A stretch of DNA of 64,000 nt. Origin: Paenibacillus sp. E222. Its GTDB lineage: Bacteria > Bacillota > Bacilli > Paenibacillales > Paenibacillaceae. Position numbers and translations under genes: made by a program. Below the pieces are notes generated by a model, which was not told the DNA's origin, made no database searches, and was given only the letters and a program-made list of their open reading frames with translations. Location: the NCBI RefSeq assembly GCF_013401555.1, contig NZ_CP058552.1, positions 1 to 64,000 on the forward strand, written 5' to 3'. Of the stretch, positions 47,096 to 60,860 are shown piece after piece. How positions within the stretch are numbered: the first letter of the stretch is position 1; every line of letters begins with the position of its first letter.

Positions 47096-49015
47096 TTACC
47101 CTCTGCTTACCGCTTTATCTCTTTGCCTTTCCGTCCGTTGCTGCTGAACCTCATCCAGATATTGCGTGAATCGGGATTCACCAGAATAGCTCAGGAACAG
47201 CCATTCCAAGGCTCGTGTCATACCGATATAGAAACGGGACACCTCCCGTTCATCCACTTCATCTATTTTTCCCATCTTACGTGGCATCGTTTCAATGGCA
47301 ATGATAAACACCGCCCTGAAATCAAGCCCTTTAGCGCTATCGATGGTTAACATTTTAATGCTTTCCTCTTCGCGATCAAAACTCTTCTTGCTCTGTTCAT
47401 CTTTGGTCACCCAATTATACGGAAGACTGTTATCGTTTAGAGCTTGCTCCATCTCACCAATAATGTTAATTCCTTGATGTTCCTGTACCCTATACAGGAT
47501 TGCAATATCCTTCAGGGCAAACGATTTTTCCCGGCGCAGATAGTCAATCGACTTAGCTACAAACGCCATCTCCGCCTTCGTGCTTTGGCTTTGATAGATC
47601 AGAGGCTCTGGTCCTTTTCGTTTTGTGAACTGAGGCGGTATAATCTCGATTCCGTCTGCCGCAGTGCTAATGACTTTGTGCTGTAACCTGGAGTGTTCCT
47701 TGTAAAAATCCCACGCAAATTGCACGATTTGTGCCGTGTTCCTATAATTGATCGTCAGAATTTTGGAGCGGCCACGGAAGTCCAGTCCCGTATCTTGAGC
47801 CAAACTGTTTTTTCGTTTGAAAATCGTTTGCGCCCGATCCTCCACAAGCAAGAGCGACTGCGTCTCCTCATTGAGACAAGCACTCACCAACTTCAACCAA
47901 TCCGGTTCGAAATCCTGACCCTCGTCAATCAATATTGCATCATATTTCGGCAACTCTTGCATCCCCTGCTCCATCTTCTCCAGCAAGGCCGGCAACTTCT
48001 TGTCCATAATCCGAAATTGCTTTCCGAGCCACGAATGGAACGTACTCACCTGAATATTGGATCCAAGCGTAGAAACCCCATCATTATCTACAAGATCAAA
48101 TAAATCCTCAGGCTCTGCCATCTTCTGCACAATGGCCTGTCTCAAGTATTGGGATAAGGTTGATCCATAACAAAGTACAAGAATGTCCCAGTCTGGATTG
48201 GCCTTCGCCAGCATCCGCGCCCGACTGACAAGCACCAGCGTTTTACCGCTACCCGCAACGCCACGGATTAATCGGTGCTTGTCTCCAACCTGCTTCGCCA
48301 TCTTTTCCTGATGCAGATCCATCGTCTTGATGTTATGCAAGGATAACAATAGCTGGTCCTGATGAGGCACGATTTCTTTGCGCTCCAAACTAATCCGCAC
48401 TTCGGGGAACAGATGGTAACGAATTGCTTGTATATCGTCATGGGTCAAGCTATATCGGTTCCGGGTAGGCACCGTAAACATGTGCAGAAGCTTCTCAATC
48501 AGAATTTCTTCCGAGAAATCTTCATCCTCCGGATTGACCTCTTCTCTGGTCAGCACAAACACCGGATCAATAACACTGTATAAATCCATATGTAGAAAGT
48601 CCCTTTGCTTCAACCGGGTGAAAACAACACCATACCCATAATTGAATTTCAGATATCCTGGCGTTCCCTCTTTGATCAGATTCTTATCCTTCTTCAATTG
48701 ATCCGCTATGAGGAATGCGTAACCTCTTGCTTGCTTCAGTGGACTCGGTTCAGTAGTCGTCTCACCTGCCGTAGTGTGTAAAGTCCATTCATCCCGATTT
48801 ACCTGATGCAGTGTGCCTTTGGTATAATCCTTCACTTCTAGTACAAGCAACCCTAAATCTGGCCCGATAATGACAAAATCCGGTCGTCTTCCACGAATCT
48901 CAGGTTCATAGTACACAATGTAGTCTTCCGGAAGATGTTTCTTAAGAGTTTCAAATAATAACCGCTCACCAGGCATCGCTTTCTTCGGGATAACCTCTGG
49001 TACTGTATTTGCCAT
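47096..49015 (-). CDS. NERD nuclease-UvrD helicase fusion
   Basis: ATG at 49015 follows AGGAG. Residues 1-150 are a NERD nuclease domain with RPDFVIIGPDLGLLVLEVKD (Asp46, Glu60, Lys62 in the D..ExK pattern). Residues about 240-639 are a UvrD/Rep-type SF1 helicase: Walker A GVAGSGKTLVLV, Walker B ILIDEGQDFEPDW, motif III-IV region ILTINYRNTAQI, motif V DSAKGLDFRAVF and motif VI FYIGMTRALEWLFL. Length is 639 residues. Such fusions act on DNA in repair or defence; the cellular role is not established. It lies at the edge of a run of nuclease-helicase genes. Confidence 0.85.
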   Translation of the reverse strand: MANTVPEVIPKKAMPGERLLFETLKKHLPEDYIVYYEPEIRGRRPDFVIIGPDLGLLVLEVKDYTKGTLHQVNRDEWTLHTTAGETTTEPSPLKQARGYAFLIADQLKKDKNLIKEGTPGYLKFNYGYGVVFTRLKQRDFLHMDLYSVIDPVFVLTREEVNPEDEDFSEEILIEKLLHMFTVPTRNRYSLTHDDIQAIRYHLFPEVRISLERKEIVPHQDQLLLSLHNIKTMDLHQEKMAKQVGDKHRLIRGVAGSGKTLVLVSRARMLAKANPDWDILVLCYGSTLSQYLRQAIVQKMAEPEDLFDLVDNDGVSTLGSNIQVSTFHSWLGKQFRIMDKKLPALLEKMEQGMQELPKYDAILIDEGQDFEPDWLKLVSACLNEETQSLLLVEDRAQTIFKRKNSLAQDTGLDFRGRSKILTINYRNTAQIVQFAWDFYKEHSRLQHKVISTAADGIEIIPPQFTKRKGPEPLIYQSQSTKAEMAFVAKSIDYLRREKSFALKDIAILYRVQEHQGINIIGEMEQALNDNSLPYNWVTKDEQSKKSFDREEESIKMLTIDSAKGLDFRAVFIIAIETMPRKMGKIDEVDEREVSRFYIGMTRALEWLFLSYSGESRFTQYLDEVQQQRTERQRDKAVSRG

Positions 49016-50514: not shown

Positions 50515-52951
50515 TTACCTCCGCTCAAAATACGCATGCAACCGATACAAACAAATCTCCTTCGTCCATCGGTACAGCACCGCCCGTTCCTCCGCATCCT
50601 CTACCTGCACACTCAACGAGAACACGCCATCCTCGAATCGGGTCATACTGCCCTTCGCCCCGCTCCACATCGACATGGGCATTTTAACAATCAGCTTCTC
50701 AATCTCCGTTCTCGTCTTCTCGTTCCATTCCCAGAGCGCAAGTTTGCCATTGTCCGAAAAGTCCTTCCGTTTCCGGTATTCCTTTTCCGTAAGATACGTA
50801 TGGAAAAATCTCGCCATCTCCCCCGGTGTGATCGGGTCCATCCAGTGCGCTTCGCCTCGCTCCAGCATGTACAGCAGCACGATCATCTTATAGCTTTTGT
50901 TCATGACCGTCTTCTCGACATCGCGCAGCCAAGCCTCATGCCGGACGTACATTTCTCCCTCATATGGGGACAGCAGTTCTGCCCAATATAGAAACCCAAC
51001 ATACGAACCAAATTCGCCCCGATACCCGATACTCTTGGAACGTCCCAGCAGATGCAGTTCCAGATACGTCGGAATACGCCCCAGCTCTCGCTTCACATCC
51101 AGAAAATCCTGATGCAGCTTCTCTCGGCGCGGCAGCCGTTTGCGGCTTAGCTCCTGAAGCAGGTTCACCACTCGGGTTTCCAGATGAATCCCGCAGTTGT
51201 CCGGAACTTCCGGCACCGCCGAATCCCGGTCTTTCGCCGCTCCTTCCAGCTCCCCGCGCACGTCCAACAGACTCAGCTTCACATCCGCATTTCGGTAGTT
51301 TCCGATCAGGTCGATGATGACACAATGCGATTTGCCCTCCGCCAGCCGCAGACCGCGCCCCACCTGCTGGGTAAACACCGTAAGCGACTCCGTTGGACGC
51401 ACAAAGAGCAGCGTGTCTACACGCGGAATATCCGTTCCTTCATTGAACAGATCCACCGTCAGCACAACCTCCAGCTCGCCCGAATCAAGCTGCCGAATCG
51501 CTTCCTCCCGCGACATCTCCGATGTGCGCGAATGCAGACTGAGTACCTTCACCCCCCTGACCGCGAAAATACGCAGCCAAATAGTCCGCCTGCCGGATCG
51601 AGGAGCAAAAGCCAATCGTTCTCGTCTGCTTGTACCGCAGCCAGGCCGCATAGATCGTCTCCACATGCTCCTCTTGCAACTGAACAGCCATGAGCTGTTC
51701 TTCATCATACTTCGTGCCAATCCAGCGAATCTGCGAATAGTCCGTATCGTCGAATACTCCGTAATATTGAAATGGCGCCAGCCAACCTCGTCGGATCGCT
51801 TCGATAAAATGCATCTGGTACGCCACATTCCCATCACAGAGCGCATACACATCCTTGCCATCCAGTCGATCCGGAGTTGCCGTAATGCCCAGCAGGAATC
51901 TTGGTTGAAAATGCTCAATCACCGACATGTACGTCTTCGCCGCCGCATGATGGAACTCATCCACCACGATCAGATCAAATGCATCGACGGCAAACACGTC
52001 CCGGTGCTTCTGCATACTCAGCGTAAAGATCGAAGCATACACACAATCCGCCGCCCCATCCTTATACTGCCCGTTATAGATCCCATGACTGCGCTCCGGC
52101 ATGATCCGTTGAAAAGACTTCTTCGCCTGGAACAGAATCTCTTCCCGATGTGCCACAAACAACACCCGCTGGAATCGCTGGGCGAAGAAACCCGCCAGAT
52201 ACGTTTTGCCAAGCCCGGTCGCCATGACGACCATCGCTTTGTCGTACTGCTCCTCCATCGTGCCATGGAGTGCTTCAAGCGCATCCAACTGCGCCAAACG
52301 TGCCTGGATCGGCACAAGCGACAGCTCAGCGGCTTCTTCCTCTTTTTCCTCGAGTAGACCTGTGCCAAATTCCGCTTCTTCCATCTCCGTGATTCGCTTG
52401 ATCATCTCCGGGTTCTTCTGGTGATATTTGCGGTACTCTTCCTCATACAATTCAATGGAATCCGGGTTCACCGGCAAGGTTGTCTCGTGGTAAAAGCTCT
52501 GCATGAACTTGTCCAAAGCTGACTGGAACGTATACGGCTCCGCCTCCGCATTCATCGCGAGATTCCATTCATATCCCGTCTTCAGCGCTGTGAAGGAAAA
52601 GTTCGAAGAGCCAACGATCAGCAGTCCTTCCCCGTTGTCATGATCGAACAGATAAGCTTTTGGGTGAAAAGAAGTGCCCCTACTTCGCCACAGCCGTGTC
52701 TCAATTCGGGGATCAACCTCACACAGCGCCCGTAATCCTTCCGACTGCGTGATATACAGATAGTCTCCCGCGAGCATCCGCACCTCGGCTCCACGTTCTG
52801 CCGCCTGTTTCAAATGCGGGGCAAGCAGCTTCACACCAGACTGCATGATAAAGGACGTCATAATATAAATCCCGGACGCATGCTGCATCCGGGTGATCAA
52901 TTCATCTGCCAGGTTGTCTGTAATGAGCTTAACGTTAAGCTTCGTCGACAT
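50515..52951 (-). pseudogene. PLD nuclease-SF2 helicase fusion, broken by a G-run frameshift
   Basis: ATG at 52951 overlaps the MazG-like gene by 17 bases. Residues 1-165 are a phospholipase D-type nuclease domain with FHPKAYLFDHD and VGSSNFS (HxK and SSN-type motif). Residues about 235-560 are an SF2 helicase: MATGLGKTYLAGF (Walker A), VDEFHHAA (DEAH-like), ITATPDRLDG. At about residue 466 the frame breaks in a run of six G; five are needed to read FRGQGVKVLSLHSRTSEM. The other frame continues through GRGLRLAEGKSHCVII and a C-terminal DUF3427-like region to 50515. Joined length is about 812 residues. Whether the tract is phase-variable or an error cannot be decided here. Confidence 0.8.
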
Positions 52952-53261
52952 CGATCAGATACACCCGCTCCTGGAATCCACCGCGCGCCTCGGCTTTGTC
53001 CGCCCGCAGTTTGTCCAGCTGTGCCGCATTCGCCCCATGCACCTCAGCCAGCGCCCGGATCACTTCGAGCATGTCGGCCAGTTCTTCTAGCGCTTCCTGA
53101 TCGCTTCCTGCACTCATGTATTCTTCCGATTCTTCTTGCAGCTTTGTTCTTAGTTCTTGCTTATACTCCTCCGGGTCCAGAATGCGTGTGCGGCATTCCT
53201 TACCGCTGGATGTGATAATATGCGGGATCTTGTCCCGCACCAATTTGTTGTATGTAGGCAT
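52935..53261 (-). CDS. MazG-like nucleotide pyrophosphohydrolase
   Basis: ATG at 53261 (MPTYNKLVRDKIPHIITSSG) is the first start after the AAGGA site with workable spacing. The 108-residue protein matches the phosphoribosyl-ATP/MazG-like all-alpha NTP pyrophosphohydrolases: LVRDKIP at the N-terminus and EESEEYM...EELADMLEVIRALAE with metal-binding Glu and Asp. These enzymes clear abnormal nucleoside triphosphates. The helicase start lies inside its end, so the two are translationally coupled. MazG-like genes with helicases occur in several defence-linked operons. Confidence 0.85.
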   Translation of the reverse strand: MPTYNKLVRDKIPHIITSSGKECRTRILDPEEYKQELRTKLQEESEEYMSAGSDQEALEELADMLEVIRALAEVHGANAAQLDKLRADKAEARGGFQERVYLIDVDEA

Positions 53262-53360
53262 GTGGTATAACATCCTTTCTGCTGTGAGAGCCTTCGAGCC
53301 TCGCGCTAGAATCTCCCTTTTTGCCATTATACCATTTGCTATGGGGAGGGATGGGTGGAT

Positions 53361-53778: not shown

Positions 53779-54294
53779 TTACTCTGATGAATCATCCTTC
53801 AATCGAGTGGCTAACTCGTCCAATATCTCTTCTGTTCGTTGAAGAAGCTTTTCGATGTTGTTCAGTTCTAGTGGCTGGTCATGTGGGTAATCTGCTAGGG
53901 ATGACATATGTTGCATCGTACCGATGAACAAGGCAATATCCAATCCGGGTTCAGTGTCCGTATGCACTAAAGGCAAAATTACGTTCATGGTGAGTTCCTT
54001 GGGTGGATGAACTGAATGATACTTATGGATATAAAGCGCCTTAATCATAGAGGCTAAAGCCCAATCACATAAAATCAGGCAGGCTTTGAACTGATTGTGA
54101 TTACGCATGATGGTGGCAAGTTTGAGATGATACTTAGCATGTTGGTGATACTCCATTATTGTGGTACGTAGCATATGGTAAGCAGGAGTTTGTTTGGATC
54201 TAGGTTTTGTGGAGATATCATGGTCTTGCGAACGTGGAGTAAAATCTACTTGGTGATTACAATGTGCTTCGGTTATGGACCAATTTCTTGCCAT
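53779..54294 (-). CDS. HEPN-domain-like protein
   Basis: ATG at 54294 (MARNWSITEAHCNHQVDFTP) has GGAGGG six bases upstream; the ATG at 54300 abuts that site. Residues 45-170 have the helical pattern of HEPN domains: YHQHAKYHLKLATIMRNHNQ, then FKACLILCDWALASMIKALY, IHKYHSVHPPKELTMNVILP. The R-x4-6-H catalytic motif of RNase HEPN proteins is not clear. Such proteins are common in toxin and nucleotide-transfer pairs; no partner antitoxin is evident. It is divergent from the XRE regulator, with a 141-bp gap. Confidence 0.6.
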   Translation of the reverse strand: MARNWSITEAHCNHQVDFTPRSQDHDISTKPRSKQTPAYHMLRTTIMEYHQHAKYHLKLATIMRNHNQFKACLILCDWALASMIKALYIHKYHSVHPPKELTMNVILPLVHTDTEPGLDIALFIGTMQHMSSLADYPHDQPLELNNIEKLLQRTEEILDELATRLKDDSSE

Positions 54295-54435
54295 TGTCAT
54301 CCCTCCAAAGAGTTAATACCAGTATTATACAATAAAATGATACTTATGATAATCAAATAAATTATTTGTATTCTTCGTTTGGTGTTTACCTTGAGAAAAC
54401 TTGTCTACACTTTTGAACATAGAGAGGTGAATACC

Positions 54436-54777
54436 ATGAACGAAGAAAGAGAAGTTTTGAAGTTGGTCGGAGCCAGAATTCGCGCACTACGCAAAGAAAG
54501 AGGGTATTCACAGGAATCCCTCGGAGAAAAAGGCGGATTTCATTTTTCATACATAGGACAGATCGAACGTGGAGAAAAGAACGTTTCTTTGGTGAATTTA
54601 GCAAAGATCGCTGAGTCACTGGATGTTAATTTGATTCAGTTATTTGCTTATATAGAAGAAGAGTTTGAAGTAACTGAAGATGAGAAACAAATCAAAGAAA
54701 TTGTACAACTGCTAAGAGATTCTTCTCCTGATAATATTCGTGTTGCCAAAAATGTTATTAAAGGAATATTGATGTGA
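54436..54777 (+). CDS. XRE-family transcriptional regulator
   Basis: ATG at 54436 (MNEEREVLKLVGARIRALRK) follows AGAGGTG; the longer frame lacks a site. The HTH is GYSQESLGEKGGFHFSYIGQ, then IERGEKNVSLVNLAKIAESL (residues 25-64). The 113-residue protein has a short C-terminal helical tail. Small XRE proteins of this kind often control restriction-modification or other defence operons. It converges with the DUF2075 gene across a bidirectional terminator and is divergent from the HEPN-like gene. Confidence 0.88.
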   Translation: MNEEREVLKLVGARIRALRKERGYSQESLGEKGGFHFSYIGQIERGEKNVSLVNLAKIAESLDVNLIQLFAYIEEEFEVTEDEKQIKEIVQLLRDSSPDNIRVAKNVIKGILM

Positions 54778-54784
54778 AAACGGC

Positions 54785-54825
54785 AAACCCTATCCTTCTA
54801 TTTATGGAAGGATAGGGTTTCTCTC
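54785..54825. terminator. Bidirectional terminator between XRE and DUF2075 genes
   Basis: AAACCCTATCCTTC pairs exactly with GAAGGATAGGGTTT around an eight-base loop, with T/CT-rich tails on both strands. Confidence 0.85.
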
Positions 54826-54850: not shown

Positions 54851-56710
54851 TCATCTTGAATTTGCTCTGCTGCATAAATAATTCAACAATTCTTGATCTC
54901 TACAGTAAACATAACAACCTTTCATCCCCCGAGACATCAAGATTTTATAAATATTTTTGATAAGTTTTGTTAGTTCCTCATTCTTAAATTTAAGCCCGCG
55001 TTTTCCCATTCTATCTTTGTACTCATCATAATCTGAATAAAGTTCTATTTTCTCCGAATCGAATTTAAGATCATTCCCTATAATTACGCCTACATAATCA
55101 AACTCAAGACCTTGAGACGTATGAACGCACCCGATCTGATCTATACCACTCTCATGAATGGCCCAGGTGCTTGATATAGAACGTGCATTCCAAGGCATAG
55201 CAAAACGATGTTCTTCAATAGTTACATCCGGAATTTCCCCATTGCGATTACCTTCTTTATCAGCTGTCCAATTCCAAGCAAAACCTGCTAACATCCTCGC
55301 CTTATATCCCTGATCGTTTTTACTTTTGATTAGATCGTATACTTCGTTAGGCGTGTCTACTAATTTGAATTCGAAAGAATCTTGATCCCAACCATCGAAA
55401 TTAGCGGTGGGACGAATCTGTAAAGCATCATCAACCCAATTCAAAAATCCTTCTGCTCCAGAACAACGGAACTGTGCTGCTAGTGAATATTCATGCACTT
55501 CCGAATCATATAGGGCAGCTAAACGTTTAATCTCGTCTATAGAACCTATATCTTCAGGACGAATACGTTGAAAGTCATCTATGAAAAACACATTCACTTT
55601 AGATGCTTTTATGATATCCTCGATCTGATTCTCCCCAAGATATTGATATGCTCCTTTACCTTTTAAACGATGCGCCTCATCCACAACAAGTACGTCGTAC
55701 ATATCAGCTGGCTCTTTGTAAAACTGACTTGATCCCGTAAATAACATCTTTGTCCTAGTTTTGTTTCTAGCTTGTCGCTGAGTCAAGGTCTCTACCATAA
55801 CCGTCCGGAATGAGGCATTCGGGGCAATGAATTTAACATTCAACTTATTTTTAAGTAATCTACCAAGGGCATTCATAGATATCACTGATTTACCTGTTCC
55901 AGGCCCACCTTGCACAATGATTGTGCGTTTTACATCTGTTTGCTTGGCAAGGCTCATAATGGCCTCGTATGCAACCTTCTGCTCATCAAGTAAAACAAAA
56001 TCAGAGTTCCCTTGAAATAATCCATCGATATGATCGATTAGCTTCTTGGAAGGACGAATCTTACCATTCTCAATTAAATAAAGTAAATTAACTCCATTTC
56101 CTTCACCTACATGCCTTTTCAGAAAATCTTGAAGTTTAGATGCATCATCAGCTAGAAACAAAGGAGCTTCACGGATAATATCCTGATATTGATTATATTC
56201 GAGAGGGTCAGGCTGAACTTTTCTGTAATTATGTAGATATGCACATGAGTATCCGTTAATATCTTTAGAGTATACAGCCTCATTCATATCACTCAAATAT
56301 TGTTTGTATGACCAAGCTTGATACGAAGGATGCGGTGTCTCTCTTGTCCTACCTCCTATAAAAGCTCTTACGACATCTTCCCGATCCATAGCCTCTACTG
56401 AATCCCATTGTTTTAACTCAACGATCACAAAGTTATCATTCTTCTGTTCATCCTGACCTGCAATGATAAAATCTATCCGCTTACTTGTAGAAGGAATATT
56501 ATATTCAATCAATATTCCGCAGTCATCTGCTACCTTCGAATTACGGATAATTTTCTCCATAAACTGCATAGAGTTGTTCCAAGCTCGTACTTCCCCTTGA
56601 TTAGGTCTTTTTCCCATGCCTTTAATGAATGCTTCTTCAATCTGAACTGTAATTTGGTTGTTATCAACTGATTCCCGGAAAGCTAATGCGTTACTGCTGT
56701 AGATAATCAT
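54851..56710 (-). CDS. PD-(D/E)XK nuclease-DUF2075 helicase fusion
   Basis: ATG at 56710 follows AGGGG. The 619-residue protein has an N-terminal nuclease-like domain: Glu69 in ILIEY, Asp80 in KRIDFIIAG and Glu98-Lys100 in FVIVELKQW form a PD-(D/E)XK pattern. Residues about 255-619 are a DUF2075 P-loop helicase: Walker A QGGPGTGKSVISMN, Walker B VLVVDEAHRLKG, FFIDDFQRIRPED, and a C-terminal motif GCVHTSQGLEFDYVGVIIG like SF1 motif V. It is the last gene of a three-gene unit, 16 bases after the membrane protein. The gene is more AT-rich than the housekeeping genes to its left. Role in nucleic-acid defence is inferred. Confidence 0.82.
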   Translation of the reverse strand: MIIYSSNALAFRESVDNNQITVQIEEAFIKGMGKRPNQGEVRAWNNSMQFMEKIIRNSKVADDCGILIEYNIPSTSKRIDFIIAGQDEQKNDNFVIVELKQWDSVEAMDREDVVRAFIGGRTRETPHPSYQAWSYKQYLSDMNEAVYSKDINGYSCAYLHNYRKVQPDPLEYNQYQDIIREAPLFLADDASKLQDFLKRHVGEGNGVNLLYLIENGKIRPSKKLIDHIDGLFQGNSDFVLLDEQKVAYEAIMSLAKQTDVKRTIIVQGGPGTGKSVISMNALGRLLKNKLNVKFIAPNASFRTVMVETLTQRQARNKTRTKMLFTGSSQFYKEPADMYDVLVVDEAHRLKGKGAYQYLGENQIEDIIKASKVNVFFIDDFQRIRPEDIGSIDEIKRLAALYDSEVHEYSLAAQFRCSGAEGFLNWVDDALQIRPTANFDGWDQDSFEFKLVDTPNEVYDLIKSKNDQGYKARMLAGFAWNWTADKEGNRNGEIPDVTIEEHRFAMPWNARSISSTWAIHESGIDQIGCVHTSQGLEFDYVGVIIGNDLKFDSEKIELYSDYDEYKDRMGKRGLKFKNEELTKLIKNIYKILMSRGMKGCYVYCRDQELLNYLCSRANSR

Positions 56711-56726
56711 GATGCACCCCTAAAAA

Positions 56727-57692
56727 TTAATTTTCTTTAACTTCTTTTTTCTCTAATCCTAAAGCATTAGACGTAAGGGTAGCTATCCCCGCTGCAAATA
56801 AGTGTAATTCCAATAATTTGTTTTGTATGTAATGAAGGAATTGAAGTATTTTCATATAAGAGTTATTCATAATTGAGTTTTGCATATTAAAATAAAATTC
56901 AGTTGTAGGCATAGGAACAGCAAAATGTAAGCAAAAAGTGTAATAAAAAGCTTTGCTATAAAAAACAATCATACTTCCTATATCAAAGTTATCTGCATAA
57001 TGAAGAAACTCTAATGACTCACTTGTCTCAGCAAAAGATAGGTAGAGATATGAAAATACCATATCAGGAAATATTAAGGCAAACAAAGAAAATAGAAATA
57101 TAAATATGATTTGATACCGAGATTTATTGTTCAATACTTTAGTCTTTACAAGCTTAAAAAGAGATTCGAAGACATAGTAAGCAATTATTATTGTGAACAA
57201 CGCCACCAGAAGGGTTTTCAACATATTCCATGTTAGGTATCCTGATATATAAAGTAACATATTATTGCTCGGATATTGTTCAAATACTTTTATAAGGAAA
57301 GCATAATAAACAAAAAATAGAACCAAAAACGTAACTAAACTTAACATAAGCATAATAACAACGGAAATATAAATGCCTAATTTCAATTTATCATTTATAA
57401 CATGATGTAACGCAACAAGAATATAAACAGGTATAAATAGTATTGTCACTGTGCTCAAAACAAAAAAGAATTCTACGGTCCATAAATGAATAAGCACTAT
57501 TGGTATTGCCCCTAATAAACAATATGCAAACCAAGATTTAATCTTCTTGTGAAATTGAAAAGCTAATAGTATAATTGTTGACCAAATAACTATAACTTTC
57601 GTATTTATGTCTTTTGAAAACAAAAATATCAGAAAATTAAATATATGTGGAATATATAACATTATTAAATAAGTTATATTACTACTTTTCAT
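56727..57692 (-). CDS. Polytopic membrane protein of unknown family (321 aa)
   Basis: ATG at 57692 follows GGGGA. About eight TM helices fill the protein (for example MLYIPHIFNFLIFLFS, FFVLSTVTILFIPVYILVAL, LKTLLVALFTIIIAYYVFES, FIFLFSLFALIFPDMVFSYL). Asn-rich loops join them. The C-terminus is charged (LEKKEVKEN). It is very AT-rich compared with both neighbours, a sign of transfer. No family recognised. It lies 30 bases after the PLD-helicase and 16 bases before the DUF2075 gene, so all three are probably one transcript. Membrane proteins with this placement in defence operons are often the effector. Confidence 0.7.
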   Translation of the reverse strand: MKSSNITYLIMLYIPHIFNFLIFLFSKDINTKVIVIWSTIILLAFQFHKKIKSWFAYCLLGAIPIVLIHLWTVEFFFVLSTVTILFIPVYILVALHHVINDKLKLGIYISVVIMLMLSLVTFLVLFFVYYAFLIKVFEQYPSNNMLLYISGYLTWNMLKTLLVALFTIIIAYYVFESLFKLVKTKVLNNKSRYQIIFIFLFSLFALIFPDMVFSYLYLSFAETSESLEFLHYADNFDIGSMIVFYSKAFYYTFCLHFAVPMPTTEFYFNMQNSIMNNSYMKILQFLHYIQNKLLELHLFAAGIATLTSNALGLEKKEVKEN

Positions 57693-57722
57693 TTTATTAT
57701 ATCCCCTGTTCTATTTAATTCC

Positions 57723-60700
57723 TCAAACAATACACTTATTCGCCACCGCCACCATCTTCGCAGGCATCTCTTCCCGTAATCGCCATACAAAGCTCATCGG
57801 TTTATTCCCCTCATGACTTACATAATCTGCTTCGCCCAGGAAGACAAATGGAGACGTATAGCCATGCTCCTCCTTATACTCCCGCACGAACAGCACAATC
57901 CGGTTGCCCGTCTCCCGGTGATGAATATACCGCTGCGCGGTAGCCGTATGCTCCGACACCCTGCTCTGTGTCTGCCAGTGGAATAGACGCTCGTTGATCG
58001 CATAATCCTCGTACAGCGTGGAGGGTGAAAAGTCTTTGTCCGATTTGTTCAGCGTAATGAAGAAGATATCGGTCTGTTCATCGGCAAAATACTTCACCCC
58101 TTCACGGAAGGCGGGTGATTGCTGGGCATTCCAATAACCGAAGGCGGCAAGCACTTGGTCGATGGAGTACATACAGTGGATATCCAGTGGACAAGTGTAC
58201 GGGAACGAATTGCTTTTATCCACAAATCGCAGATGACCCAGATTATATTTGAAAATATCCACAAGCTCTTCTCGAAAAGCCTCACAAGACAGCACGCGCT
58301 GCACACCCTCTTCAATGCTGCTCAGTCCTAGTTTCTCGGGCGCAGCCCGGTGGAAGGTGTAATAGAACATGATCAACATGCGCCGTTCATCCGCGGTCGT
58401 CGGTTCTTTGCCTTTTTCGATATAGTCGATCAGGAACGTCAGCCAGCTTCGGGAGTTGATCGTCAGCACAGATGGCAGTCTGCGGATATACTCATCCTGC
58501 TCACTCTCGATAGGCTCTGTCAGTCCAGCTTCGGCTAACATACCGCGGAAATACCTTCTCCCCGTACGTCCACCATAGAATTCATAGAGTTTCATCCCGT
58601 GATGCTCTAAAAAATGAGCCAAGGTCAGCGGCAGTCCGGTGTCTTGCTGGAACGTTTGCAGCTTCTGGATCAACGCTCTACGATTGCGGCTCATCTGCTT
58701 CAAGTTGCGCATGATGTATTCCTTCGCTTGTTTTTCCAATTGAATGAACGTGCCGCGTGGTAAGTTCGAAAAACCATTCTCGACGTAGTACGAGATGGAA
58801 TGTTTGGTAGCGCCGATCAGGGCGCGGAATTTATCCTGGAACCTGTATTCCTGATGCGCTTGTCCGATGAAGTCGAGCACGGTCAGGCACTCTTTGCCAT
58901 CCGCCATCCGCAGTCCACGTCCCAACTGCTGCAGGAATACGGTCAGACTCTCGGTAGGACGCAGGAACAGAATCGTGTTCACCTCAGGGATATCCACGCC
59001 CTCATTGTACAGATCCACGACAAAGATCATGCGCAGTTCCCCGTTCACCAGCTGTCCTTTCGCAGAATGACGTTCCTGTTCGCTCGACCCGCCATGCAGG
59101 GCTATGGATGGAATGCCGGCTTCGTTAAATATTTTTGCCATATACATCGCATGATCCACCCCAACACAGAACCCAAGCCCCTTCACATCGTCCAGATCAG
59201 TTGCGTATTTGTTCAAACTTTGGATGATCTGGTTGGCACGAATTTTGTTATGAGTATAGAGCTTCTCCAGTTCGTTCAGATCGTAGCCTTTTCGCGACCA
59301 TTTCACCTGAGATAGATCGACAGTATCGGTGACGCCAAAATATTGAAAAGGACTCAGCAGTTTCCGGTCAATGGCATCGGTTAGACGGATCTCGGCGGCA
59401 ATCGTATGATCGAAGTAGGCAGAAATGTCTTTGCCATCCATCCGTTCCGGTGTTGCAGTAAGTCCTAGCAAAATCTTCGGTTCGTAGTGAGACAACAGCC
59501 TCTGGTACGAAGGCGCAGCGGCATGGTGGAATTCATCCACGATAATGTAATCGTAATAGTCTGGGCTGGTGATCTCCGTCAGCTTCATGGAGTTAAGACT
59601 CTGAATGCTAACAAACAATTGGTCCAGCGCCTCTGCTCGTTGATTCCCGACATGCAGCTCGCCAAAGTTCATATCCTTCAGGATATACCGGAACGTGTCC
59701 CGGCTTTGCTTCAAGATTTCTTCCCGATGGGCGACAAAAAGCAGCTTGGCTCCCGCATGGCTTGCCCGGAATCGCTTGTAGTCGAAGGCAGAGATGACCG
59801 TTTTGCCAACACCTGTGGCGGCGACGATCAGATTGCGGTTTCGTCCGTACAGCGTACGCTCGGCGTGAAGCTGTTCCAGCACTTCTTTCTGATAATCGTA
59901 AGGCTGGATGTCCAGGTGAAAGTGGTTAGACTGATCTTTTTTACGATTCAGAGCTGCCTTCAACTGTGCCTCATGTCCTTTATCCTCAGCCACATATCTC
60001 GTGAATTCACGGTCATTCCAGTAACTCTCGAAGGTCGCTTCAATCTTGCGCAGCACGTCGAGTGAATCCTTCTCCGTCACCTTGAGGTTCCACTCCATAC
60101 CACTGGTCAGCGCCGGGTTGGACAGGTTGGAAGAGCCGACATAGGCGGTGGTGAATCCAGTATCACGGTGGAAAATGTACGTTTTGGCGTGCAGTCGGGT
60201 CACTTTGGTATCATACGAAATCTGGATTTCCGTGTTAGGCAGTTTGCTAAGTTCAGTAATGGCCTTGAGGTCGGTTGCTTCCATATAAGTCGTCGTGATA
60301 ATCCGCAGCTTGCCTCCGCCAGCCGTGAACTGTTGAAGCTGTTCCAGCAGCAGGCGAAGCCCGCTGAACTTGATAAATGATACCAGCCAATCGATCCGAT
60401 CGGCGGTCACGATCTCCTTTTGCAGCTCCAGTAACATACTCGGCTCGGACTTGGCACCTGTGAATAAAGAGCTTTGGGAGATCGGAGTATCTGGACGAAC
60501 GATTTTGGTATCCCGGACAGCCCGAATGCTGTTCAGCTTGGAATACACATGGGTCAGTACCTCCCCCTGCTCATCCAGTTGCAATTCGTTGTACTCTTCT
60601 TCTCCCAGTGTGCCTTTCAGGGTAGCAATAATCTCATTACACGTTCGGATCTGCGCCAGTACTGCGGCGCTGTCTTCGGACTGTTCCCGTACAATCTTGA

Positions 60701-60860
60701 GCGCTCGTCGGGTCACCGCCGCCAAATACGTGGACAGCAGCTTGCGTGCTTCCTCTGCATCCAGCTTCTCAGTCCCAATGTGATACACATCCGGGTCCAG
60801 CGCCGAAATCTCCTGTCTGGTGATTGTGTTGATAAGCTGTTCATATATACCTTGTTTCAT
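57723..60860 (-). CDS. PLD nuclease-SF2 helicase-DUF3427 protein (1045 aa)
   Basis: ATG at 60860 opens MKQGIYEQLINTITRQEISA. Residues about 130-275 are a phospholipase D-type domain with LHAKTYIFHRDT and VGSSNLSNPALTSG (HxK, SSN). Residues about 320-700 are an SF2 helicase: AATGVGKTVISAFD (Walker A), DYIIVDEFHHAAAPSYQ, GLTATPERMDG, GVDIPEVNTILFL and GRGLRMADGKECLT. The C-terminal 330 residues match the DUF3427 region. It shares this layout with the frameshifted gene at 50515, but the two are divergent enough to be separate arrivals or old paralogues. It heads a three-gene unit with the membrane protein and the nuclease-DUF2075 protein. Confidence 0.85.
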   Translation of the reverse strand: MKQGIYEQLINTITRQEISALDPDVYHIGTEKLDAEEARKLLSTYLAAVTRRALKIVREQSEDSAAVLAQIRTCNEIIATLKGTLGEEEYNELQLDEQGEVLTHVYSKLNSIRAVRDTKIVRPDTPISQSSLFTGAKSEPSMLLELQKEIVTADRIDWLVSFIKFSGLRLLLEQLQQFTAGGGKLRIITTTYMEATDLKAITELSKLPNTEIQISYDTKVTRLHAKTYIFHRDTGFTTAYVGSSNLSNPALTSGMEWNLKVTEKDSLDVLRKIEATFESYWNDREFTRYVAEDKGHEAQLKAALNRKKDQSNHFHLDIQPYDYQKEVLEQLHAERTLYGRNRNLIVAATGVGKTVISAFDYKRFRASHAGAKLLFVAHREEILKQSRDTFRYILKDMNFGELHVGNQRAEALDQLFVSIQSLNSMKLTEITSPDYYDYIIVDEFHHAAAPSYQRLLSHYEPKILLGLTATPERMDGKDISAYFDHTIAAEIRLTDAIDRKLLSPFQYFGVTDTVDLSQVKWSRKGYDLNELEKLYTHNKIRANQIIQSLNKYATDLDDVKGLGFCVGVDHAMYMAKIFNEAGIPSIALHGGSSEQERHSAKGQLVNGELRMIFVVDLYNEGVDIPEVNTILFLRPTESLTVFLQQLGRGLRMADGKECLTVLDFIGQAHQEYRFQDKFRALIGATKHSISYYVENGFSNLPRGTFIQLEKQAKEYIMRNLKQMSRNRRALIQKLQTFQQDTGLPLTLAHFLEHHGMKLYEFYGGRTGRRYFRGMLAEAGLTEPIESEQDEYIRRLPSVLTINSRSWLTFLIDYIEKGKEPTTADERRMLIMFYYTFHRAAPEKLGLSSIEEGVQRVLSCEAFREELVDIFKYNLGHLRFVDKSNSFPYTCPLDIHCMYSIDQVLAAFGYWNAQQSPAFREGVKYFADEQTDIFFITLNKSDKDFSPSTLYEDYAINERLFHWQTQSRVSEHTATAQRYIHHRETGNRIVLFVREYKEEHGYTSPFVFLGEADYVSHEGNKPMSFVWRLREEMPAKMVAVANKCIV

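Follow-up and report, generated by a model that had tools for sequence, protein, structure and literature searches.

Three consecutive minus-strand genes of Paenibacillus sp. E222 (assembly GCF_013401555.1, contig NZ_CP058552.1, positions 1-64,000; this whole stretch of 64,000 nucleotides is called the window) encode, from upstream to downstream, a protein matching SauUSI-type restriction enzymes (gene 3), a polytopic membrane protein (MEM), and a DUF2075 helicase with a predicted nuclease part (gene 1, or the core gene; Table 1). We propose that the best candidate unit is the core gene paired with whatever gene occupies the slot directly upstream of it, likely a defence module, unproven, made of a conserved helicase-nuclease and an exchangeable partner. 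Judging from the sequences, we hold this two-part reading tentatively, a little short of an even chance, and the function of the unit is predicted from genomic context. The partner is replaced as a whole gene between sharp borders, and the core is conserved.

The genus sample consisted of 75 genomes, one per species and the window's own included, and genome searches scored the first few candidates per genome. DUF2075 was found at E<=1e-30 in 13 of the 75. Nine genomes have the window-type gene in the hot spot described below, and eight of these retain its start, the ninth (G020) having been left with only a 3' remnant. In all eight loci the slot directly upstream is occupied: by MEM in the window alone; by another membrane protein, MEM2, in six (G035, G056, G057, G064, G073, and G005, where it is broken); and by genes for a 477-residue and a 99-residue protein in G055. 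The 477-residue protein contains, as judged by eye, what we take to be an HNH-like motif. MEM2 comprises three lineages that are 34-42% identical to one another; its structural model was poor (predicted local distance difference test score, pLDDT, 60) and unusable for fold search. The idea that MEM and MEM2 make up one family was rejected, as profile comparison revealed no relation between them. G+C content is 26.8-29.1% in the five slot genes examined, namely MEM, three MEM2 genes and the HNH-like gene.

The slot gene lies directly upstream of the core, at distances of 16-69 bp. Homology between loci ends at the stop codon of gene 3 and restarts approximately 12 bases before the DUF2075 start: AGGCGGTGCATC precedes the core ATG in loci L066, L068, L071 and L072, and with one base different in L067, and the window shares GGTGCATC upstream of the core start. 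The slot gene and DUF2075 are intact together in six of the eight genomes (window, G035, G055, G057, G064 and G073). The pairing of a membrane gene with a helicase-nuclease, made in a sequence-only reading of the window, is supported. Of the six genomes, the window alone has an intact gene 3; G056, where DUF2075 is frameshifted, has one too. Assembly errors may account for some of the gene 3 breaks, as the G055 assembly is 89% complete and a run of N lies near the end of the gene in G073. In the four loci with intact MEM2 and DUF2075 (L067-L070) the SauUSI-type gene is broken or a remnant every time. At L069 and L070 gene 3 is reduced to one and the same inverted, deleted remnant, 95.2% identical over 1585 bp to the stop codon, and the MEM2 genes there belong to different lineages, 34% identical; the slot was therefore exchanged after the loss of gene 3 and independently of it. 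The core is under strong purifying selection, with a ratio of nonsynonymous to synonymous substitution rates (dN/dS) of 0.02-0.05 in 15 pairs and DNA identity of 94.9-98.3% among six intact hot-spot loci. MEM2 evolves faster (dN/dS 0.17-0.54, four pairs).

These observations replace a different grouping. The sequence-only reading had joined all three genes, minus-strand with gaps of 30 and 16 bp as the open reading frames confirm, into one possible defence system with the membrane gene between two helicases. As a fixed system the trio was rejected by the genus survey: gene 3 is present in 36 of the 75 genomes, mostly without DUF2075, and MEM is found at this slot in none of the other genomes, two outcomes that the same reading had listed as speaking against it. 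MEM as the constant partner was likewise rejected; more often the slot holds MEM2, an HNH-like gene, or, in other genera, a MazG-like gene.

The helicase domain of gene 1, with its Walker motifs, matches Pfam family PF09848 (SLFN-g3; 314.6 bits, 1.3e-93), which we take to be the former DUF2075; plasmid records label gene 1 homologues DUF2075. GGPGTGKS and DEAH are invariant in four aligned sequences, two of them near-identical, and so are D80 and E98-x-K100 of the putative nuclease part, where Pfam gave no match. Of the two nuclease-helicase fusions seen in the sequence-only reading, Pfam supports the PLD and superfamily 2 (SF2) domains of gene 3 and the helicase of gene 1, the nuclease of gene 1 being assigned by motif only. 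A search of PDB sequences with the core returned no relative at E<=0.001. Partial PADLOC matches, all in the helicase region, were to the candidate PDC-S41 (57.9 bits), AbiO (50.3), Nhi (50.0) and Gabija GajB (14.5); the matches span part of the protein, and the nuclease domains and partners of those systems are unlike those of gene 1. The Pfam name Schlafen group 3 recalls the bacterial Schlafen defence proteins cited in PMC12839542, passages of which speak of Schlafen-family RNases; compared with the proteins so described there, gene 1 has only the helicase domain of that name, and its nuclease is PD-(D/E)XK by motif. A full-length DUF2075 homologue with 42% identity, annotated as hypothetical, is encoded by Microcystis phage Mwe-JY31 (PP438423.1, 3864-5705).

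The middle gene has 26.8% G+C, against 38.0 and 50.7% for the flanking genes, and its product matches no Pfam, PADLOC or NCBIfam family. The sequence-only reading was right about an AT-rich membrane gene without a recognised family; the hydrophobic segments that we see clearly number seven, not about eight. Fold prediction, which that reading had called for, gave a medium-confidence model in which residues 190-311 are predicted to resemble a pore-loop channel module (Foldseek E above 2), so that MEM partly, and weakly, resembles ion-channel pores. A search among 5.8 billion proteins listed eight, the window's own included, a further profile search added little, and no relatives were found in viral contigs. 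The MEM family occurs in four of the 75 genus genomes (the window and three distant members at 26-32% identity) and in 11 of 394 genomes of the family Paenibacillaceae, again counting the window's, which is the only one at this slot. In P. radicis (L005, 7170-10969) a MEM relative lies 29 bp behind the gene of a 918-residue Mokosh-like superfamily 1 (SF1) helicase with C-terminal DUF2726, and in L008 and L009 the gap from the MEM relative to a following UvrD helicase gene is about 320 bp. At L006, L007 and L082 no nuclease-helicase was found among the few neighbours scanned; neighbours of the distant MEM loci were scanned in part, with L083-L085 unscanned and G254 not fetched.

Outside the genus, partners of other kinds stand beside the same core. 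DUF2075 was matched at E<=1e-60 in 79 of the 394 family genomes, 68 of them from other genera; loci were fetched from 60 of these 68 (three of the eight left out are partial matches). In 33 of the 60 loci the gene immediately upstream, on the same strand, is MazG-like, and 36 have a MazG-like gene somewhere in the fetched stretch; the identification rests on PF12643 matches of the two members tested. At L135, in another genus, the order of the window recurs: first a remnant of gene 3, then a membrane protein of a third kind, with four hydrophobic segments and no BLAST match to MEM or MEM2, and then DUF2075 (79% identity). HNH genes lie upstream of DUF2075 at L151 and L146, with gaps of 29 and 127 bp. 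A type IV enzyme, McrBC- or PLD-type, was found within the approximately 16 kb fetched in 16 of the 60 loci; because whole-genome searches gave 27 DUF2357 and 16 DUF3427 matches in 59 genomes, this co-location is, by our rough estimate, far above chance, with the caveat that defence genes cluster generally. Of 398 genomes sampled across the class, 33 had a DUF2075 match, and 25 of the 33 lie outside Paenibacillaceae; the locus was fetched from every one of the 25. A MazG-like gene is beside DUF2075 in eight of these 25 loci (four upstream on the same strand, three upstream on the other strand, one downstream), MEM and MEM2 are absent from the three genes printed on either side in all 25, and one locus (L245) has no usable DUF2075 frame. 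On a Priestia plasmid a DUF3578 gene, a nucleotide pyrophosphohydrolase gene and DUF2075 stand in a row.

MEM2 has matches in 19 of the 394 family genomes. Two distant relatives adjoin McrBC genes, 50 bp before McrB at L276 (2384-7822) and 28 bp behind McrC at L280 (7817-14958), with an Mrr or HEPN gene nearby, and could be a membrane component added to type IV restriction systems in Paenibacillaceae. One further distant MEM2 locus lies between ExoVII-like and RelA/SpoT genes, and another is near a gene 3 homologue.

Gene 3 matches a known kind of enzyme, the SauUSI-type (type IV) restriction enzymes. Pfam recognises PLDc_2, ResIII, Helicase_C and DUF3427 in it: the PLD nuclease domain (PF13091 at 170-281, with the HxK motif as HAK at 224) is followed, by sequence, by an SF2 ATPase (Walker A at 347) and a C-terminal modified-DNA-binding region. 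The match to PADLOC mREase_IV scores 735 bits, and the alignment to the solved SauUSI structure 7clg covers residues 145-1015 (E 4.6e-91); a passage of PMC7913695 gives 7CLG as the SauUSI deposit. Gene 3 has the PLD nuclease, SF2 ATPase and DUF3427 C-terminus in common with SauUSI, differs by about 100 additional N-terminal residues, and probably stands outside the exchangeable unit. A gene-3-like match at E<=1e-30 was obtained in 43 of the 75 genus genomes; gene 3 proper (at least 67% identity) accounts for 36 by our table count, several of them fragments, and the rest are a shorter paralogue or other helicases. Gene 3 is probably not part of the helicase and slot unit, and is most likely an independent first defence layer in the same hot spot.

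That the stretch behind gene 3 is a defence hot spot follows from its constant borders and varied contents. We read the surroundings of 36 genus loci from 35 genomes. The stretch after gene 3 ends at the XRE gene in 25 of the 36, as counted by script, the others lacking one border or being different sites (for example, L074 and L075). Between these borders the cassettes differ from genome to genome; six of ten cassette proteins, from nine loci, have PADLOC matches with E below 1e-9 (Helicase_II, AriA, REase_II in part, PD-Lambda-5, and, both from one locus, a type IIG restriction-modification enzyme and Lamassu LmuB), and four have no PADLOC match at E<=1e-5. At L103 the site is almost empty (226 bp). 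The set thus lies in a defence hot spot, a point that the sequence-only reading had asked to be checked, and the statement that it is, as a whole, no recognised named system is upheld: with PADLOC-DB 2.0.0 (2023) the detector finds no full match, only gene 3 being strong (mREase_IV), gene 1 partial and MEM without any. In the literature searched, which was open-access PubMed Central (PMC) only and hence weak evidence, the pair of core and slot gene is undescribed; no paper there combined DUF2075 with 'defense', and none of the DUF2075 papers was about defence by its title.

In the module that we propose, phage or other foreign DNA would be sensed or processed by the helicase-nuclease, which would then activate the product of the partner gene. 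Damage to the infected cell would come from the partner, through leakage of the membrane, DNA cutting or, in the case of MazG-like proteins, removal of nucleotides; in the window the partner would be a seven-helix membrane protein with a predicted ion-channel-like pore. CBASS, Lamassu and Avs systems likewise combine a conserved core with variable partners of differing chemistry and are found in defence hot spots. The unit shares this arrangement and differs in its core, which is a PD-(D/E)XK-SLFN-g3 helicase by prediction; Pfam found no cyclase or SMC domain, and STAND-type matches were sub-threshold only. In CoCoNuT and McrBC islands, according to passages of PMC11090510, type IV enzymes occur with many linked extras, a figure legend naming a four-transmembrane protein among them; two MEM2 relatives sit directly beside McrBC, and a DUF2075 core is unmentioned in those passages.

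A number of observations weigh against such a module. The PD-(D/E)XK nuclease of gene 1 is predicted by motif residues alone, and the 477-residue HNH-like protein has no match in Pfam or PADLOC. The channel-like fold of MEM comes from a medium-confidence model with Foldseek E above 2, a profile search of PDB sequences with MEM found no channel and one insignificant short match, and the loop of MEM reads AVPMPTT, the K+ channel filter signature, which we take to be TVGYG, being absent. A single insertion was probably the origin of the genus loci, so that slot exchanges are few (about five alleles), and they may reflect recombination without functional coupling. In G058 (L076) the MEM2 frame is intact even with DUF2075 deleted to approximately 42 bp, which means that MEM2 can persist alone; MEM2 relatives adjoin McrBC and ExoVII-like genes where DUF2075 is absent; of the 13 distant MEM2 loci, whose neighbours were partly scanned, nine have no recognised nuclease partner (a YobI-like ATPase gene follows the MEM2 relative at one of them). 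The distant DUF2075 genes of G031 and G045 (43% identity) lack such a slot gene: upstream stand a gene for a 166-residue protein, 127 bp away, and a radical-SAM gene, 264 bp away, and the downstream neighbours are McrBC genes in G031 and, directly behind DUF2075, a gene 3 homologue in G045. In 24 of the 60 loci from other genera no MazG-like, membrane or HNH partner lies upstream, so that the core may work alone.

The DUF2075 loci without a recognised partner (G031, G045 and the 24 of 60), together with the many unrelated cassettes that fill the stretch between gene 3 and XRE elsewhere and the almost empty site at L103, are what would be expected if a type IV enzyme, a stand-alone DUF2075 protein and cargo genes were independent neighbours sharing a hot spot and acting separately. 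We nevertheless consider this unlikely, as the slot gene keeps its place 16-69 bp upstream and stays intact with the core in six of eight genomes while gene 3 decays; exchange affects whole genes within a fixed frame, the same order is found with the third membrane protein at L135, and MazG-like genes recur directly upstream in more than half of the loci from other genera.

The membrane genes might instead be back-up killers for SauUSI- or McrBC-type enzymes, with DUF2075 an extra. The SauUSI-type gene, or what remains of it, does end 13-49 bp before the start of MEM or MEM2, the MEM2 relatives at L276 and L280 accompany McrB and McrC, and the co-location of type IV enzymes with DUF2075 in other genera agrees with it. 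Such a role is improbable given that the SauUSI-type gene is broken or a remnant in all of L067-L070, where MEM2 and DUF2075 are intact, and that slot exchange continued after its loss. A similarly low probability, lower by a shade, is given to a non-killing role of the slot gene, whose product would restrain the helicase-nuclease or fix its location, as a guard, immunity or anchoring protein. Fast evolution and exchange beside a conserved enzyme would fit an anti-inhibitor or specificity partner too, and MEM2 of G058 outlives DUF2075 without apparent harm; the HNH-like slot gene and the MazG-like genes elsewhere, however, resemble enzymes acting on nucleic acids or nucleotides, not restraints.

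Returning to the module of core and exchangeable partner, a broader form of it is possible and rather doubtful: a widespread and so far unrecognised family of defence systems would be built around DUF2075 helicase-nucleases, with effectors that are MazG-like nucleotide pyrophosphatases in many genomes and, in Paenibacillus relatives, three unrelated kinds of membrane protein, one of them a pore-loop channel whose filter would be new, or an HNH nuclease, exchanged singly by recombination between fixed flanks. If so, a helicase family annotated only as DUF2075 would gain a function, and the slot would be a natural experiment, with one core and several effectors in near-identical loci, for studying how effectors of different chemistry are triggered by one DNA-sensing enzyme.

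Table 1. Coordinates of the gene set and its borders in the window.
Feature	Positions	Strand	Remarks
Core gene (gene 1): PD-(D/E)XK by motif and SLFN group 3 (former DUF2075) helicase	54851..56710	-	619 aa
MEM, the middle gene and slot gene of the window: polytopic membrane protein	56727..57692	-	321 aa
Gene 3: SauUSI-type type IV restriction enzyme by sequence; upstream slot border	57723..60860	-	1045 aa
Ribosome-binding-site region of the core gene	56711..56723	-	homology between loci restarts about here
Inverted repeat, bidirectional terminator-like, between the convergent core and XRE genes	54785..54820	.	sequence
XRE-type regulator, bounding the hot spot on the right	54379..54777	+	Pfam HTH_3
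HEPN-domain gene, belongs to the conserved border	53779..54300	-	PF05168, 28.3 bits

The XRE and HEPN-like neighbours noted in the sequence-only reading are real by their Pfam matches; XRE also adjoins DUF2075 in another genus (L158, L160 and L163), and the HEPN gene comes after XRE in most of the hot-spot loci printed. Between the stop codon of gene 1 and the XRE gene there is a perfect 14-bp inverted repeat (54785-54798 pairs with 54807-54820). Its interpretation as a bidirectional terminator stands as far as the repeat itself goes; the T tails are poor, and a consensus terminator scanner did not list it.

Several other genes of the same island deserve mention. In a shorter PLD-SF2 paralogue of gene 3 (50515-52951, minus strand) a frameshift has left two overlapping frames; several relatives have a single intact frame of about 815 residues. 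A MazG/PRA-PH-like gene (52935-53327) overlaps its start. Just past the window, at 64665-64892 of the same contig (G000:C1), lies a short remnant of a second gene 3 copy (82% identity, two stops), and G070 likewise has a second gene 3 fragment nearby, which may indicate a past duplication of the border gene. A NERD-UvrD helicase gene at 47096-49015 (minus strand; PADLOC C3a187, 353 bits) has copies with approximately 82-88% identity at L071, L078 and L092, three of the genus loci fetched. Many relatives carry, between HEPN and MazG, a gene with a conserved N-terminal and a variable C-terminal part (L067, 7332-8366; L071, 6400-7515), followed by a small gene, a polymorphic-toxin-like locus that is absent from the window. 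Finally, possibly homologous genes for proteins of 244 residues recur at the downstream end of several hot-spot cassettes (L080, 9396-10130; L089, 10262-10996; also L092, L096 and L104).

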